This document shows, piece by piece, positions 52,383 to 59,296 of a DNA stretch of 64,000 bases. Origin of the DNA: Actinoalloteichus hoggarensis. GTDB lineage: Bacteria > Actinomycetota > Actinomycetes > Mycobacteriales > Pseudonocardiaceae. Made by a program: the position numbers and the translations under genes. The notes under the pieces are model-generated. The model made no database searches, was not told the DNA's origin, and worked only from the letters and a program-made list of their open reading frames with translations. How positions within the stretch are numbered: position 1 is the stretch's first letter; every line of letters starts with the position of its first letter. The stretch lies in NCBI RefSeq assembly GCF_002234535.1, contig NZ_CP022521.1:5022001-5086000 (forward strand), in the 5' to 3' direction.

Positions 52383-53480
52383 ATGGCACTGCCGTTGAAG
52401 TCGCCGATCGAGCCGATGCTGGCGAGCACCGCCGCCGAACTGCCCGCCGGGGACTGGTTGTTCGAGCCCAAGTGGGACGGCTTCCGCTGCGTGGTCTTCC
52501 GGGACGGCGACGAGATCATCCTGCAGTCACGCACCGGCCGGCCGCTGAACCGCTACTTTCCCGAAGTGGTGCGGCGGCTCGCCGAGGTCCTGCCCGAGCA
52601 GATCGTCCTCGACGGCGAACTGGTGGTGGCCCGGGGCGGCAGGCTCGACTTCGACGCGCTCGGCGAACGCATCCATCCGGCCGACAGCAGGGTCCGCATG
52701 CTCGCCGAGGCGACGCCCGCCGAGTTCCTGGCCTTCGACCTGCTGGCCCTCGGCTCCCGCGATCTGCTCGGCGCTCCCCTGCACGAACGCCGCGAGCTGC
52801 TGATCGAGCTCGGGTCGACGGGCCAGGCCGCCCGGCTGCGCGTCACCCCCGCGACGACCGACCCGGACACGGCCATGACCTGGTTCGATCTGTTCGAGGG
52901 CGCCGGACTGGACGGGATCGTCTGCAAGCTGCTGGACGGCGCCTACACTCCCGGACGCCGCACCATGATCAAACTCAAGCACGAGCGCACGGCCGACTGC
53001 GTGGTGGCCGGGCTGCGCTGGCACGCCAAGACCGAGCCCGGCACCTCGGTGGGCTCGCTGCTGCTCGGACTGTACGACGAGCGGCGGACCCTGCATCACG
53101 TCGGCGTCGTGGGCGCCTTCACCGCCGCCGTCCGCCGTTCGCTGGCGGACGACCTCGCGGACCTGCGGGTGACGGACGCCGACGAACATCCCTGGCTCGG
53201 CGACCGCCCCGTCGACGGGCAGCGACTGCCCGGAGGCGAGAGCCGATGGCGTAAGGCGAACACCGACTGGGTCGCGCTGCGGCCGGAACGGGTGGTGGAG
53301 GTCGCCTACGACCACACCGAGGGCGCCCAGCCCGCCCGATTCCGCCACACCGCCCGGTTTCGCCGGTGGCGCCCCGACCGCGATCCCGCGTCGTGCCGAT
53401 ACGACCAGCTCGACGAACCGGTCCGCTACGACCTGGCCGCCGTGCTCGCGGGCGAGGTCCGCCCACAGGCATCTCGCTGA
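52383..53480 (+). CDS. ligC: ATP-dependent DNA ligase, LigC type
   Basis: A 365-residue ligase. Adenylation motif I is LFEPKWDGFRC, with the Lys that takes AMP near residue 30; motif III is VLDGELVVA, and EFLAFDLLALG, GLDGIVCKLLDGAY and MIKLKHERTADCVVAG are motifs IIIa-V. The C-terminal OB fold is complete. LigC acts as a back-up ligase in repair in mycobacteria. A LigD-type polymerase domain gene lies 4.7 kb downstream on the other strand; no Ku gene in the window. Single gene, 74 bases after the AmaP-like gene. Confidence 0.92.
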   Translation: MALPLKSPIEPMLASTAAELPAGDWLFEPKWDGFRCVVFRDGDEIILQSRTGRPLNRYFPEVVRRLAEVLPEQIVLDGELVVARGGRLDFDALGERIHPADSRVRMLAEATPAEFLAFDLLALGSRDLLGAPLHERRELLIELGSTGQAARLRVTPATTDPDTAMTWFDLFEGAGLDGIVCKLLDGAYTPGRRTMIKLKHERTADCVVAGLRWHAKTEPGTSVGSLLLGLYDERRTLHHVGVVGAFTAAVRRSLADDLADLRVTDADEHPWLGDRPVDGQRLPGGESRWRKANTDWVALRPERVVEVAYDHTEGAQPARFRHTARFRRWRPDRDPASCRYDQLDEPVRYDLAAVLAGEVRPQASR

Positions 53481-53923: not shown

Positions 53924-55489
53924 GTGCCGCGCATCGAACGGACGGTCACGGTGCTGTGCGCCGCGCTCGCCGTGCTGCTCACCGCCGCCTGCACGGTAGG
54001 CGGCTCGGAGCGTCCGCCGGTGCCGCTGTTGATCGACGGGCCGACGGAGGCACCCGGCGACGACGGCAGCGACGCCGAGGTGCCGGTTCCCGACCTGGAG
54101 ACTCCGTCGGGGATGCTCGCGTGGTCCGACTGCACGGCCGCGACCGCCGACCGGCTCGGCGATGCCGCGGACGGCTCGGCGGAATACCAGTGCGCGCAGC
54201 TGGTCGCGCCGCTGGAGGCGCCGGGGATGCCCGGCTTCGGCTCGACCCCGCTGAACCTGCTGCGGGTCGGCAGCGGCCCGACGCCACTGGTCGTGGTCGA
54301 CGACGCCGCGGGCCTGCCCGGCACGCTGTACGCGGCCCGGCTGGCCCGGAGTCTGTCCCCGGAGACGCTGGAGACCTTCTCGCTCATCGGCGTGGACCGG
54401 CGCGGCACCGGGACGTCCTTCGACACGAGCTGCGTCCGTCCGCAGGACCGGGAGACGGTGCTGTCCTACGACCCCACGGCGGCCACCGCCGAGGAGCTGC
54501 GCGGCCTTCAGACGGCCACCGAGAGCGCGGCCAAGGAGTGCACCCTCATCCTCGACCAGCTGACCAGGGCCTTCGACGGTCATCGCACGGCGGGCGATCT
54601 GGAGCAGCTGCGCGGCGAGCTGGGGCTGGAGCGGCTGAACGCCATCGGCCGAGGCGAGGGGGCGCAGGCGCTGACCACCTACGCCGCGCGGTTCCCCGAG
54701 TCGGTGGGCCGGCTGGTGCTCGACGGGGTGCCCGACCCGAACCTGGACGCCGTCGGCCTCGCCGAGGAGCAGGCCCGCGCCGCGGAGTCCACCCTGGACG
54801 CCTTCTTGAGCGACTGCGCGTCGGGTCCGGAGTGTCCGCTCGGCTCCGACCCCCGGCAGGCCCTCGACACGCTGTTCGCGGACCTCGCCGTCCAGCCGCT
54901 GCCCACCGAGCGCGCGCCGCTGACCCACGGTCTGGCCACCTCCGCGATCCTGCTCGGACTCGCCGACCGGGCGGGCTGGTCCGATCTGGCCGACCGCGTC
55001 GCGAGTGCGATCGACGGGCAGGGACAGGCGTTGGCGGCGCTGGTCGAGCCGTTGTTGACCTCGTCCGGTGTCGACCAGCCCCGATTCGAGGCGATGATGA
55101 TCAACGGCTGCAACGACACCCGCGACCGCATCCCGCCGAACCGGGTCGCCGAGCTGGCCGAGGAGTGGGCTCAACGGCATCCCTACTTCGGCGGGCAGGC
55201 GGCACAGCGCCTGATGCTGTGCAGCTCGTGGCCCATCCCCACCGAGGAGCCCGCCGCGCCCGAGGTCGGCGGGCTGCCGCCGACCATGGTGATCGCGACG
55301 GCGCTGGATCCGGTGACGCCGGGCCTCGGCACCGCCAAGGCCGCCGAGGCGCTGCCGGGCGCCGTGCTGGTGGACTGGCAGGGGGCCGGGCACGGTGCGG
55401 TGGGCACCTCCACCTGTGCCACCGGCGTCGCCGAGGACTTCCTGGTGCACGGCGAGGTACCCGAGGACACGGTGGTCTGTCCGCCGTGA
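53924..55489 (+). CDS. Alpha/beta-hydrolase (TAP-like) lipoprotein lacking the nucleophile serine
   Basis: A 521-residue lipoprotein: signal VTVLCAALAVLLTAACTVGG with lipobox LTAAC. The fold matches secreted tripeptidyl-aminopeptidase-like hydrolases: LIGVDRRGTGTS, LNAIGRGEGAQALTTYAARF, VGRLVLDGVPDP and a C-terminal TAP-like part MVIATALDPVTP ... WQGAGHGAVG. The acid Asp and the His are present, but the nucleophile elbow GxSxG reads GRGEG, so Ser is Gly. The protein probably binds rather than cleaves, or uses another mechanism. Start GTG 53924 after AGCAAGGAG. Confidence 0.85.
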   Translation: MPRIERTVTVLCAALAVLLTAACTVGGSERPPVPLLIDGPTEAPGDDGSDAEVPVPDLETPSGMLAWSDCTAATADRLGDAADGSAEYQCAQLVAPLEAPGMPGFGSTPLNLLRVGSGPTPLVVVDDAAGLPGTLYAARLARSLSPETLETFSLIGVDRRGTGTSFDTSCVRPQDRETVLSYDPTAATAEELRGLQTATESAAKECTLILDQLTRAFDGHRTAGDLEQLRGELGLERLNAIGRGEGAQALTTYAARFPESVGRLVLDGVPDPNLDAVGLAEEQARAAESTLDAFLSDCASGPECPLGSDPRQALDTLFADLAVQPLPTERAPLTHGLATSAILLGLADRAGWSDLADRVASAIDGQGQALAALVEPLLTSSGVDQPRFEAMMINGCNDTRDRIPPNRVAELAEEWAQRHPYFGGQAAQRLMLCSSWPIPTEEPAAPEVGGLPPTMVIATALDPVTPGLGTAKAAEALPGAVLVDWQGAGHGAVGTSTCATGVAEDFLVHGEVPEDTVVCPP

Positions 55490-55813
55490 CACCGGGGGCG
55501 CCGGCCCTGGCTCGGCGATCGTGAGGCCACCGGGAGAGCGTGGTGCGGGCTCGCGCCGGTCACCGCCGCGCCCCCGCGTCGAGGGCGACGCGCCCCTCGG
55601 TGCGACGGGCCGATCCGCCCGTTCGGAGGCGAAGTGCTCGGGGCTCGGCGAGCAGCCGCCTTCGACGTCGCGTCGATCGCGCGGCGGGCGAGTGTGGGAG
55701 GGGGCGGCGGCAGGCGGCGAGTCATCGGCCGAGCAGGCGGTGGGCACGGGGATCCGCCGCGCCCGCCGCCGCGACTCGACCGTTCCGACCGCGGTCCTCG
55801 CCGTCGGACACGA

Positions 55814-55831
55814 GCTGACCGTCCGGTCAGC
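55814..55831 (-). terminator. Perfect 7-bp hairpin overlapping the peptide's stop codon
   Basis: GCTGACC-GTCC-GGTCAGC: seven paired bases, four-base loop. The stop codon of the cysteine-rich peptide lies within the stem. Reads the same on both strands. Confidence 0.6.
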
Positions 55832-55922
55832 AGCCCTTGCAGCAGCCGCAGCCGGGCCCGGTGCATCCGGAACAGCAACCGCATCCGTCGAGACCGGGCG
55901 GCTGAGCTCGAACACTCTCCAT
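55827..55922 (-). CDS. 31-residue cysteine-rich peptide with two CGCCxGC modules
   Basis: ATG at 55922 preceded on the minus strand by TAGGAGGTCACC, an ideal ribosome binding site. The peptide starts MESVRAQPPGLDG, then has two seven-residue modules, CGCCSGC and CGCCKGC, joined by TGPG, and ends on the last Cys. That makes eight cysteines in the last 18 residues. Such density indicates metal binding (Cu(I), Zn) as in metallothioneins, or several disulfides; no leader or export signal is visible. A perfect palindrome GTGCCGGCAC lies at 56008-56017, about 90 bases upstream. No neighbour suggests a role. I know of no named family with this exact pattern. Confidence 0.7.
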   Translation of the reverse strand: MESVRAQPPGLDGCGCCSGCTGPGCGCCKGC

Positions 55923-56558
55923 GGTGACCTCCTACAGAACGCCGTGTGCCGACGCCTGTCGATGCTGCTGCACGCGGCGAACACCCCGGCACCACCGCCA
56001 GATTGAAGTGCCGGCACGACGGAGTCGCCGAACCCGACACACACCGTGACATCACCCCGCGCCCGACGTCTCACCATCTGGACGTCGCGTCACTCCGCGA
56101 GACGAGCCGCGACTCCGGACACCGCCGATGACGTGCGTCTTCGTCGGCGTGATCGTCCCCCCGGACATCCCGGCTCGGTTCGATCAGCGTATGCGTATGA
56201 GTGAATGGACGACGGTCCCGGTCACCCAGCGCGCAGGACCGGACCGCCGCGACGCGGGCTGGCGAGGCCACACCGCCGGGCAGGCGACGGGCACCGCCGC
56301 GCGGCCCGTCGAGCAGCCTGCGACGGCGGGCCCGGCGATGTCGGACACGGCGATGTCGGACACGACGGCGCGCACGGCCCCGCTCGGCGACGGGCACCGG
56401 CAGGCGCGGGCGCGCGGCAGGCCCCCGCCGGAGAACACCGGTGCCGCGGCGCCGACGGCCGACCGCCGCGACATCGCCACCCGGCGCCGCCGCGACCGGC
56501 CGTGCGCTCGTCCCGCCCGGGCCGACGCGTCACACGGGCCGACGACCCGCCGCCGGTG
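55923..56558. other. Spacer between the Cys-rich peptide and hisS
   Basis: 636 bases. It contains the peptide's upstream region, the palindrome at 56008-56017 and a doubled 15-mer GCGATGTCGGACACG near 56336-56365. Open frames are shadow-like. The 337 bases left of the peptide (55490-55826) hold nothing else recognisable. Confidence 0.5.
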
Positions 56559-57839
56559 TCACCGCTCGCCGAGCGGTCGCTCCGCCCACGGCGCCGCCGA
56601 GTCCCGACGGGTGCCGAGGTGCACGAAGGAGGTGAACCCCCAGTCGGTGAGCCGGTCGAGCTGAGCGCCGAACTTGCCGCGCCTGCGCACCGGAGCCGCG
56701 GGCCGACCGGCCGACCGCAGTTCCCGTGCGACGGCCAGCACCTCGGCCGCGGGGACGTCGGTCTCGTACAGCACCGCCACCTGTTCGCCGCGTCGCGTCC
56801 CGCCGAGCAGGTCCACGATGCGCTCGAAACCGATGGAGAAGCCGCAGGCGGGCACCTCACGACCGAGCGACCGGCCGATCAGGCGGTCGTAACGCCCGCC
56901 GCCCGCCACCGACGAGGAGCTGTCGGGGTGGACGATCTCGAACACCTGACCGGTGTAGTACCCCATCCCCCGGACCAGCGTCGGGTCGAACTCCCAGGTC
57001 GAGCCCGACGACTCGGCGAGCGGTGCCAGGCCGGCGATGGTGGAGCCGAGGTCGGTCAGGACCTGCTCGTCCAGCGACGGCAGCGCGTCGGCCAAGGTGT
57101 CCACCACGTCGTCGATCGCGACGGACCGCAGGCGCTCGATCTGCGTGCGCACCATCGTGACCGCCTCGGCGGCCAGCCCGCGTGACTCCACCAGTTCGGC
57201 GGAGACGCCGTCCCAGCCGATCTTGTCCAGCTTGTCCAGAGTGATGAAGAAGCCGTCCCAGGCCTGTTCGGGCAGCCCGACGTGTTCGGCCACGGCGGCC
57301 AGCAGCCTGCGGTCGGAGATGCGGACCGTAGTCCCCGTCAGGCCGATCGCGTCCAGCGCCGCGACGGTCGCCTCGATCAGCTCGATCTCGGCGAGCACGC
57401 TCTCCTCGCCGATGATGTCGATGTCGCACTGGTAGAACTGCCGATACCGACCCTTCTGCGGTCGTTCCGCCCGCCACACCGGCCCGAACTGGAACGATCG
57501 GAACGGCAGTGGCAGCTGCGCGTGGTGCGCGCCGTAGAAGCGCGTCAACGGGACGGTCAGGTCGTAGCGCAGGCCCAGATCCACCAGGTCGGCCAGCCCG
57601 ACGCCCTCCGCGAGCGGCTCGGTGAGTCCGCGCCGCAGCACCCGGTAGATCAGCTTCTCGTTCTCGCCGCCCTGGCCGCCGGTGAGCCTGCCGATGTCCT
57701 CCAGCGCGGGCGTCTCGATGCGGTGATAGCCGTGATGCCGGTAGACCTCCGTGATGGCCGCCAGCACATGATCGCGGTCGGCGACGGCGGCGGGAAGCAG
57801 ATCACGGGTGCCCCTGGGGGGGCTGTTGTCAGATTTCAC
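56559..57839 (-). CDS. hisS: Histidyl-tRNA synthetase
   Basis: A 426-residue class II synthetase charging tRNA-His. GTRDLLPAAVADRDHV is the usual opener, motif 1 lies in ITEVYRHHGYHRIETPALED, motif 2 in FQFGPVWRAERPQKGRYRQF with YQCDIDIIG, the histidine-binding signatures are LVRGMGYYTGQVFEI and VAGGGRYDRLIG, and motif 3 is ACGFSIGFERI. The C-terminal anticodon domain is present. GTG 57839 has AAGGA upstream and starts the conserved text. The last residues (ERPLGER) are followed by low-complexity DNA. Confidence 0.92.
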   Translation of the reverse strand: MKSDNSPPRGTRDLLPAAVADRDHVLAAITEVYRHHGYHRIETPALEDIGRLTGGQGGENEKLIYRVLRRGLTEPLAEGVGLADLVDLGLRYDLTVPLTRFYGAHHAQLPLPFRSFQFGPVWRAERPQKGRYRQFYQCDIDIIGEESVLAEIELIEATVAALDAIGLTGTTVRISDRRLLAAVAEHVGLPEQAWDGFFITLDKLDKIGWDGVSAELVESRGLAAEAVTMVRTQIERLRSVAIDDVVDTLADALPSLDEQVLTDLGSTIAGLAPLAESSGSTWEFDPTLVRGMGYYTGQVFEIVHPDSSSSVAGGGRYDRLIGRSLGREVPACGFSIGFERIVDLLGGTRRGEQVAVLYETDVPAAEVLAVARELRSAGRPAAPVRRRGKFGAQLDRLTDWGFTSFVHLGTRRDSAAPWAERPLGER

Positions 57840-58154
57840 CGAACATCCTTGCGCTGTCGAACCAGGGCATGATCCCGCCCGAGAAGCCGGACGGGCACCG
57901 GGCGCAATCCTAAGCCCCGGCCTCAAGCCCCCGGGGCGGTGAGCGTCGGCGAACGACCACCACACGGCCGATCATCACGAGATCACCACGGGACCGATCG
58001 TCACGCCTGCCGACGTCGACCGGACGACGCACGAAGGCGGCGCGGGCGGACGTGGTCCGGACGGCGGCCGTGGCGGTCGGCGGAGCCCCGGCGATCAGCG
58101 CAACCGGGCGGCCGGCGGAGCCAAGCCGGCCCCTCCGTGAGCCCGCGTGTCTCG
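57840..58154. other. Short spacer, nothing recognised
   Basis: 315 bases between the hisS start and the polymerase-domain stop, both minus strand. No coding frame or hairpin stands out. Confidence 0.5.
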
Positions 58155-59183
58155 TCAGCTCGTCGGCCTGCGGCGTTCCCGGCTGGGCTGCACCCTGGGC
58201 GGCTCCCCCGGCATCTTGGGGTGGTCGGGCGGATAGGGCAGATCGCCCAGTCCGTGGTCGCGCGCATCGCGCGCCGCCCACTCCAACAGGGGCTCGATCG
58301 ACTGCGGGTCGTCGTCGATGCCCGCGTGCGCGTCGCCGTGCTCGGCCAGCCAGTCCGGCACGGTGCGCAGGGTGAAGTCGTCCGGTTCCACCGATTCCAG
58401 CTGCTCCCAGCGCAGCGGGGTGGAGACGGTGGCCCTCGGGGTGCCCCGCACCGACCAGGCCGAGGCGATCGTGCGGTCCCGTGCCGTCTGGTTGAAGTCC
58501 AGGAACACGCGGCGGCCGCGCTCCTCCTTCCACCAGGAGACGGTGGCCAACTCCGGAATCCGCCGGGCGACCTCCCGCGCCAACGCGATCACCGCGCGGC
58601 GGACCCCGACGAAGTCGTGCTCGGGGCGGATGCGGACCAGCACGTGGATGCCTCGGCCGCCGGAGGTCTTGGGATGGCCGACGATGCCCGCGTCGCCGAG
58701 CACCTCCGCCAGCACCAACGCCACCCGGACGGCGTCGTCGAAGGTGGTCCCCGGCTGCGGGTCGAGGTCGATGCGCAACTCGTCCGGGCGATCCACGTCG
58801 GCGCGGCGGACCGGCCAGGGATGGAAGTCGAAGGTGCCGAGGTTGGCGGCCCAGGCGAGCACGGCGGGCTCGGTCGGACACACCTCCACGGCGGTGCGCC
58901 CCGACGGGAACGTGATCCGCACTCCCTCCACCCAGCTCGGCGCGCCCTTCGGCACGCGCTTGGCGTAGAAGGGCTCGCCGTCCACCCCGTCCGGGAACCG
59001 TTTGAGGGTGGTCGGCCGATGCAGCAGGGCGGTCAGCAGCGGCTCCGCGACCGTCAGGTAGTACTCGACCAGCTCGCGCTTGGTGATCCCCGGCTGGGGG
59101 AAGTACACCTTGTCGGGGTTGGTCACCCGGACACGTCGGTCCCCGTGCGGCCCGGGGACGGCGATCTCGACGGCATCGGCCAT
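58155..59183 (-). CDS. LigD-type polymerase domain (PolDom/primase-like), stand-alone
   Basis: A 342-residue archaeo-eukaryotic primase-like enzyme of the LigD PolDom family: VRVTNPDKVYFPQPGITKRE opens it; KRFPDGVDGEPFYAKRVPKG, the catalytic DELRIDLDPQPGTTFDDAV (DxD), HPKTSGGRGIHVLVRI and RRVFLDFNQTARDRTIAS follow. It fills gaps with NTPs at double-strand breaks or in base excision repair. Fused ligase and nuclease domains are absent. LigC (52383-53480) may supply the ligase. ATG 59183 starts the family text. Confidence 0.9.
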   Translation of the reverse strand: MADAVEIAVPGPHGDRRVRVTNPDKVYFPQPGITKRELVEYYLTVAEPLLTALLHRPTTLKRFPDGVDGEPFYAKRVPKGAPSWVEGVRITFPSGRTAVEVCPTEPAVLAWAANLGTFDFHPWPVRRADVDRPDELRIDLDPQPGTTFDDAVRVALVLAEVLGDAGIVGHPKTSGGRGIHVLVRIRPEHDFVGVRRAVIALAREVARRIPELATVSWWKEERGRRVFLDFNQTARDRTIASAWSVRGTPRATVSTPLRWEQLESVEPDDFTLRTVPDWLAEHGDAHAGIDDDPQSIEPLLEWAARDARDHGLGDLPYPPDHPKMPGEPPRVQPSRERRRPTS

Positions 59184-59296
59184 CGGGCCAGCGTAAGCGC
59201 GGTGCGCCCGCCTCGCGCCCGGAGCGACGCGACCGTCTCGTACCCCGGCCCGGTGCACTGCCGAGCGGGTCGCGACGGAACCGCTACCGTGGAGTC

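Follow-up and report, generated by a model that had tools for sequence, protein, structure and literature searches.

The window analyzed here, a 64,000-nucleotide stretch of Actinoalloteichus hoggarensis contig NZ_CP022521.1, carries on its minus strand an ORF of 31 codons (55827–55922, stop included), assigned from its translation and its relatives. The product, MESVRAQPPGLDGCGCCSGCTGPGCGCCKGC, is a 31-residue peptide with eight cysteines within the last 18 residues, as the first-pass annotation had described. Its conserved core, CGCCSGCTGPGCGCCKGC (55830–55883, minus), is built from tandem CxCCxxC modules. The sequence before the start reads TAGGAGGTCACC-ATG; the strong ribosome binding site reported earlier is present as AGGAGG at 55928–55933 (minus), ahead of the ATG at 55922. 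A gene for a TAP-like α/β hydrolase (53924–55489, plus) converges on the peptide gene. The locus is flanked by separate genes for an ATP-dependent DNA ligase (52383–53480, plus) and a LigD primase-polymerase (58155–59258, minus). Between the latter and the peptide gene sits a histidyl-tRNA synthetase family gene (56559–57965, minus; TIGR00442 score of 296 bits, cut-off 287), an arrangement confined to the genus's three members among the 40 loci compared.

When 60 genomes (own included) were searched with the single sequence, both remaining members of the genus gave full-length matches (E = 1.3e-13 and 4e-11), and there were many more. The tandem-module ORF was present in 24 of 34 loci (own included), each time ending no more than one residue past the last cysteine, and profile A1 was built from these 24 ORFs. 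A1 matched 175 of 249 genomes from the same family, covering 43 of 46 genera, and was without a match in the other 74. The family was judged to be Pseudonocardiaceae from five named records (Lentzea kentuckyensis, Kibdelosporangium persicum, Amycolatopsis marina, Saccharothrix deserti and a Saccharothrix MAG), the lineage being taken from the first four. In a phylum sample of 396 genomes, A1 matched two: our own genome and one partial match (13 of 31 positions, E = 0.004). Scanning the locus of the latter revealed no short ORF with at least six cysteines. Among 298 genomes of the order, a short-form profile, A2, matched 39, all of them in the same family; its sensitivity is lower than that of A1, and it missed some A1-positive genomes. 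The phylum and order samples (396 and 298 genomes) thus held no convincing relative outside Pseudonocardiaceae.

A generic cysteine-pattern scan, which matched at least 118 genome stretches and at least 120 viral stretches, yielded mostly poly-cysteine readings when 118 genome and 80 viral stretches were translated and ORFs of fewer than 120 codons considered. Among the matches listed, only L159, L204, L218, L220 and L234 encode a peptide of the eight-cysteine type with a stop codon no more than one residue away. A mobile origin for the gene was rejected, as plasmid and phage records gave no match to the peptide, although short tblastn queries make this weak evidence. Three genomes (G009, G011 and G034) carry two copies of the gene in differing contexts (L081/L082, L083/L084 and L063/L064); one copy of the pair lacks a clear promoter element in both G009 and G034 (upstream regions L027 and L008).

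The coding status of the ORF was assessed on 65 distinct cores, collected by a pattern that fixes 10 of the 18 core positions (eight cysteines and two glycines), so that the invariance of cysteine is partly built in; three long-tailed matches in L175 and L226 were left out. In all 65 copies the stop codon follows the module CxCCxxC-xGxx-CGCCxxC by no more than one residue, with no residue after the last cysteine in 36 and a single one in 29. Frameshifts or stops in relatives, named beforehand as grounds for discarding the gene, did not appear: the frame is open in 65 of 65 of these pattern-selected cores. Cysteine is encoded by TGC 422 times and TGT 98 times (520 codons), and the conserved glycine and proline positions use all four codons. 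Substitutions are mainly synonymous, the type of bias proposed earlier as a check. When nearest-neighbor single changes were counted at only the eight core positions left free by the collecting pattern, 117 synonymous changes (1244 opportunities) and 45 nonsynonymous changes (3436 opportunities) were obtained, giving a crude ratio of 0.14. The ribosome binding site, whose loss had also been named as a warning sign, keeps a match of at least four bases in 56 of 65 copies by a simple score but is weaker in nine.

In the two same-genus relatives the ORF is identical at 87 and 72 of 96 positions, whereas identity is 279 and 261 of 540 in the region 160–700 nt upstream and 88 and 78 of 180 in the region 200–380 nt past the ATG. 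The nearest flanks are fairly alike in the closer relative (55/65 and 75/104; 38/65 and 47/104 in the second), and the contrast between ORF and flank therefore rests mainly on the outer flanks and the second relative. We conclude that 55827–55922 is a real, conserved protein gene under purifying selection. In keeping with the earlier remark that it is too short for ordinary gene callers, this genuine gene falls under the usual length limit.

Outside the cysteines and the fixed glycines, a proline is conserved in 56 of 65 cores and position 8 is threonine or serine in all 65. The region before the first cysteine varies from three to 17 residues, giving peptides of 21 to 36 amino acids. Such conservation beyond the thiols would suit a regulatory or adaptor micro-protein that binds a partner and holds a structural Zn or Fe-S site. 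Judged by composition, the peptides have very few hydrophobic or charged residues with which to engage a partner, and some genera tolerate seven or eight cysteines in a rearranged order; we consider this explanation improbable. The combination of a variable N-terminus and a conserved C-terminal core is likewise reminiscent of the leader-core layout of a RiPP precursor, the cysteines of which would be modified by an enzyme encoded elsewhere. However, the shortest peptides, 10 of the 65, are only 21 residues long with three residues ahead of the first cysteine, which leaves no room for a leader. Pfam and NCBIfam gave no match, and no modification or export gene was seen among the annotated neighbors (25 of 68 Pfam families). 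A RiPP origin, which a distantly encoded enzyme would still permit, is very unlikely.

The rearranged peptides came from 26 genomes with no or weak A1 match that were re-examined with A2 (a further 49 A1-negative genomes lie outside this set). Of the 26, 18 had an A2 match with E no higher than 3, and 11 of these were accepted on inspection of the sequence. Five genomes of one genus carry MAGCGCC(A/S)KCTGCGDNCCPNC, which retains eight cysteines in a rearranged pattern downstream of the same upstream element; this is as expected if the number of thiols outweighs the exact sequence. Other divergent forms are MSGCGCGCGKCSGPGCGCCSNCG or peptides with seven cysteines. The upstream element scored 9.7–15.6 in eight of the 11 divergent members (99% background quantile, 8.5) and is visible by eye in a ninth, G018. 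Candidate divergent peptides at L384 and L387 had element scores near zero.

This upstream element, which the first-pass annotation overlooked, is new here. Applied to 51 non-redundant upstream regions (two of 53 were dropped as redundant), a Gibbs search converged on TCnCTCGnnnnGCGGT(g/a)t with 15.4 bits, against 7.9–8.3 bits in four shuffled sets. The copy in the window, TCAATCTGGCGGTGGT (55991–56006, minus), is a presumed activator site (family consensus, TCnCTCGnnnnGCGGT) and lies 23 nt ahead of a presumed −10 box, CAGCAT (55962–55967, minus), within a stretch kept in both same-genus relatives. In leave-one-out scans over 170 nt, the element TCnCTCG-N4-GCGGT scored above the 99% background level, set from 130-nt windows, in 43 of the 51 regions and below it in eight; the window's own copy scored 15.3. 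A TAnnnT box follows in 33 of 51 regions, 22 nt (17 regions) or 23 nt (16 regions) past the element. It is missing from the remaining 18, the window among them, and nine of those 18 have CAnnAT in its place. Within the genus, a 20-nt window over the element is identical at 20 and 16 of 20 positions and a 7-nt window over the box at 7 of 7 in both relatives.

With the inferred transcription start as reference, the element would span approximately −50 to −35 and be centered about 42 bp upstream at standard spacing. This position suits a putative class II activator site. Control of the MerR type, in which the operator occupies a 19–20 bp spacer, was rejected; the stretch between the element and the −10 box is not conserved. 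We know of no metal-regulator site that the element matches. The palindrome GTGCCGGCAC, noted earlier upstream of the gene, does exist at 56008–56017, but alignment showed it to be absent from the equivalent place in both same-genus relatives, and it was rejected as an operator because it is not conserved even within the genus.

A strict form of the promoter (the element, 21–24 nt, then TACCGT) occurred 24 times in the 249 family genomes, and the reversed pattern did not occur. Directly ahead of the peptide gene were 21 of the 24; of the other three, L115 ends at a contig edge and L133 and L134 are unexplained or due to chance. None of 296 genomes in the phylum sample contained the strict form (reversed control, one occurrence). 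Most copies, including that in the window, are not caught by the strict pattern, which shows specificity and not the whole regulon; the description "one-gene regulon" is true of the strict form only. A wider regulon in the window's own genome was sought with a relaxed element, TCNCTCNNNNNGCGGTR, and rejected: its 12 occurrences, against 14 for the reversed control, amount to background, and none of the 12 sites has a peptide of the eight-cysteine type within the next 300 nt. At L133 (1500–1700, minus; G067:C3 at about 695840), the full strict element and −10 box are present and the peptide does not follow; approximately 100 nt past the element there is an AGGAGG and then a 6-codon ORF (MRDREC). 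This site may be what is left of a second copy, or the same regulator may have a further target here.

The surroundings of the gene were compared at 40 loci; L098 was removed from an initial 41 as it has no strict pattern match and holds a divergent form. In 23 of the 40, the TAP-like hydrolase gene is the convergent neighbor of the peptide gene, at a distance of no more than 600 nt in 22 and of 2.2 kb in L081, and is presumably unlinked to it in function. The other 17 loci fall into several contexts, which include groES/groEL genes, a LuxR-type regulator with an FMN reductase, a methionine synthase family gene with a DNA ligase, and a gyrase/topoisomerase gene. Because the neighbors change between loci, the peptide gene looks like an autonomous, self-contained unit. 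A Pfam scan of 50 of the 66 listed neighbors, from which 25 of 68 families were considered, revealed no gene for a metal transporter, a metal regulator or a peptide-modifying enzyme, and adjoining metal genes were discounted on that basis.

One recurrent neighbor could point to a different role. Of the 40 loci, 16 have a gene for the methionine sulfoxide reductase MsrB no more than 10 kb away. Together with eight cysteines in 18 residues separated by Gly/Ser-rich spacers, and with a promoter element at an activator-type position, this would fit a redox or thiol-stress peptide whose cysteines cycle between thiol and disulfide, acting either as a disulfide or persulfide sink or as the partner thiol in mycothiol metabolism. 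However, MsrB is on the strand opposite to the peptide gene, often several kilobases away, and absent from the other contexts, as befits a mere chromosomal neighbor. CxCC and CxC triplets are moreover typical of metal clusters and not of CxxC redox pairs. A redox function is unlikely, if less so than the adaptor role.

Neighboring genes also bear on whether the peptide has any function of its own. In a cysteine-responsive leader, ribosomes stalling at the cysteine codons would attenuate a downstream gene and the peptide itself would be jobless. Polycysteine leader ORFs acting as cysteine attenuators are reported from mycobacteria, and like them the present gene is a short ORF dense in cysteine codons. 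In one context, a gene of the cobalamin-independent methionine synthase family lies downstream on the same strand (L064, L082 and L100; 81, 1583 and 211 nt, respectively), a possible link to sulfur amino acids, though an inconsistent one. A stable hairpin just past the stop codon, described below, would also be in keeping with attenuation. In 23 of 40 loci, however, the only conserved gene downstream is the hydrolase gene in the opposite orientation, which leaves nothing there to attenuate, and the downstream genes differ between contexts. A conserved co-directional gene was not found beyond the one three-locus context. Unlike polycysteine leaders, the peptide is conserved at the level of residues, including those other than cysteine, and usually has a ribosome binding site. 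Of all the alternatives, we give this one the least credence.

The stop codon of the peptide gene is held within a perfect 8-bp inverted repeat, GCTGACCG/CGGTCAGC, at 55814–55831 (no strand assigned), between the two converging genes. The repeat had been described earlier as a hairpin; it is present, but its folding energy in the window is not unusual (z = −0.5). Across the family, an unusually stable fold (z below −2) around the stop codon or just downstream was found in 39 of 65 copies compared with five of 65 control windows, taken 100–900 nt into each locus, with shuffles that keep base composition only. A run of four T near the downstream hairpin occurs in only six of 65 copies, and these hairpins are therefore not classical intrinsic terminators. 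The repeat is a possible end-of-transcript element, weak in the window's copy. A structured RNA was rejected, as Rfam gave no match at E up to 1 over 55400–56600.

The composition of the 65 peptides bears out the earlier description of a metallothionein-like make-up: they contain 28.6% Cys, 21.3% Gly, 14.1% Ser and approximately 0.2% aromatics. Exactly eight cysteines are present in 64, aromatic residues occur in three and histidine in 12. A cysteine-rich composition of this kind with CxCC spacing is a metallothionein trait, and the peptides have the sequence features of the class, being small and very rich in cysteine, with CxC/CC spacing and few or no aromatics. Profile searches placed them in no known metallothionein family. 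For the 24 A1 members Pfam returned no family with E of 1 or below, NCBIfam and PHROGs gave no match to the peptide, and at the same threshold the SmtA-type profile PF02069 matched nothing in the window's own genome. Against PDB chains, the profile gave one chance-level match (prestin, E = 0.41) and the single sequence none; no metallothionein was recovered.

Three known systems invite comparison. SmtA-type metallothioneins resemble the peptides in concept only, as small cysteine-rich metal buffers; the peptides are clearly shorter than the 51-position PF02069 profile, contain histidine in a minority and do not match it. The fungal Cu-metallothioneins outside yeast (MT Family 8; Neurospora crassa and Agaricus bisporus) have 26 residues and seven cysteines in the pattern X2-CXC-X5-CXC-X3-CXC-X2-C-X3, according to PMC4755600. 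They too are very short (21–36 residues here), with a similar number of cysteines (7–8 here) separated by small residues. The present peptides differ in being bacterial and in their arrangement, CxCC-xx-C-x4-CxCC-xx-C, and in alignments they do not fit the Family 8 pattern; any likeness is presumably convergent. MymT, the mycobacterial copper metallothionein, is a 4.9-kDa protein predicted to bind up to six Cu(I) (PMC7558416). Both are small, cysteine-rich actinobacterial ORFs that were formerly unannotated; in contrast to the mycobacterial MymT, the eight-cysteine family was not found in the other families of the order sampled. The fungal Cu-thioneins are nearest in size and MymT is nearest by lineage.

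We favor the interpretation that the peptide is a metallothionein-like buffer of Cu(I) or of mixed metals held as thiolates, produced under the control of an activator, and put its probability at roughly 0.6. The redox, adaptor, RiPP and attenuator explanations all rank below this metal-thiolate buffer. The stand-alone gene, in most copies equipped with a ribosome binding site, its own promoter-type element and a stable hairpin past the stop codon, would encode an ultra-small, cytosolic metallothionein-like peptide. Its seven or eight cysteines in CxCC/CxxC spacing, with almost no aromatics and an N-terminus free to vary, would provide thiolates that fold around a metal-thiolate cluster. Cu(I) would be favored because the peptide is short, usually lacks histidine and has CxC/CC spacing, with Zn or Cd as possible alternatives. 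A putative activator binding at TCnCTCG-N4-GCGGT would activate the gene in response to metal or thiol stress, and the peptide would then buffer the metal.

A more ambitious proposal, which we advance tentatively and at somewhat less than even odds, is that most genera of Pseudonocardiaceae possess an undescribed metallothionein with its own activator and a near-dedicated promoter element, together forming a minimal one-gene metal-buffering regulon with a metal sensor. Among titles and abstract openings, a body of literature with subscription papers largely outside it, we found no account of this peptide.

Ordinary gene callers tend to miss this gene, and the conserved element offers a direct route to its controlling sensor. 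If the peptides bind metal, they would be among the smallest natural metallothioneins and would provide a minimal model of how thiolates cluster around Cu(I) or Zn; as a metallothionein, the 21-residue form with eight cysteines would be smaller than the 26-residue fungal Cu-thioneins. Metal binding would also mean that soil actinomycetes of a large family possess a buffer of this kind for metals or thiols.
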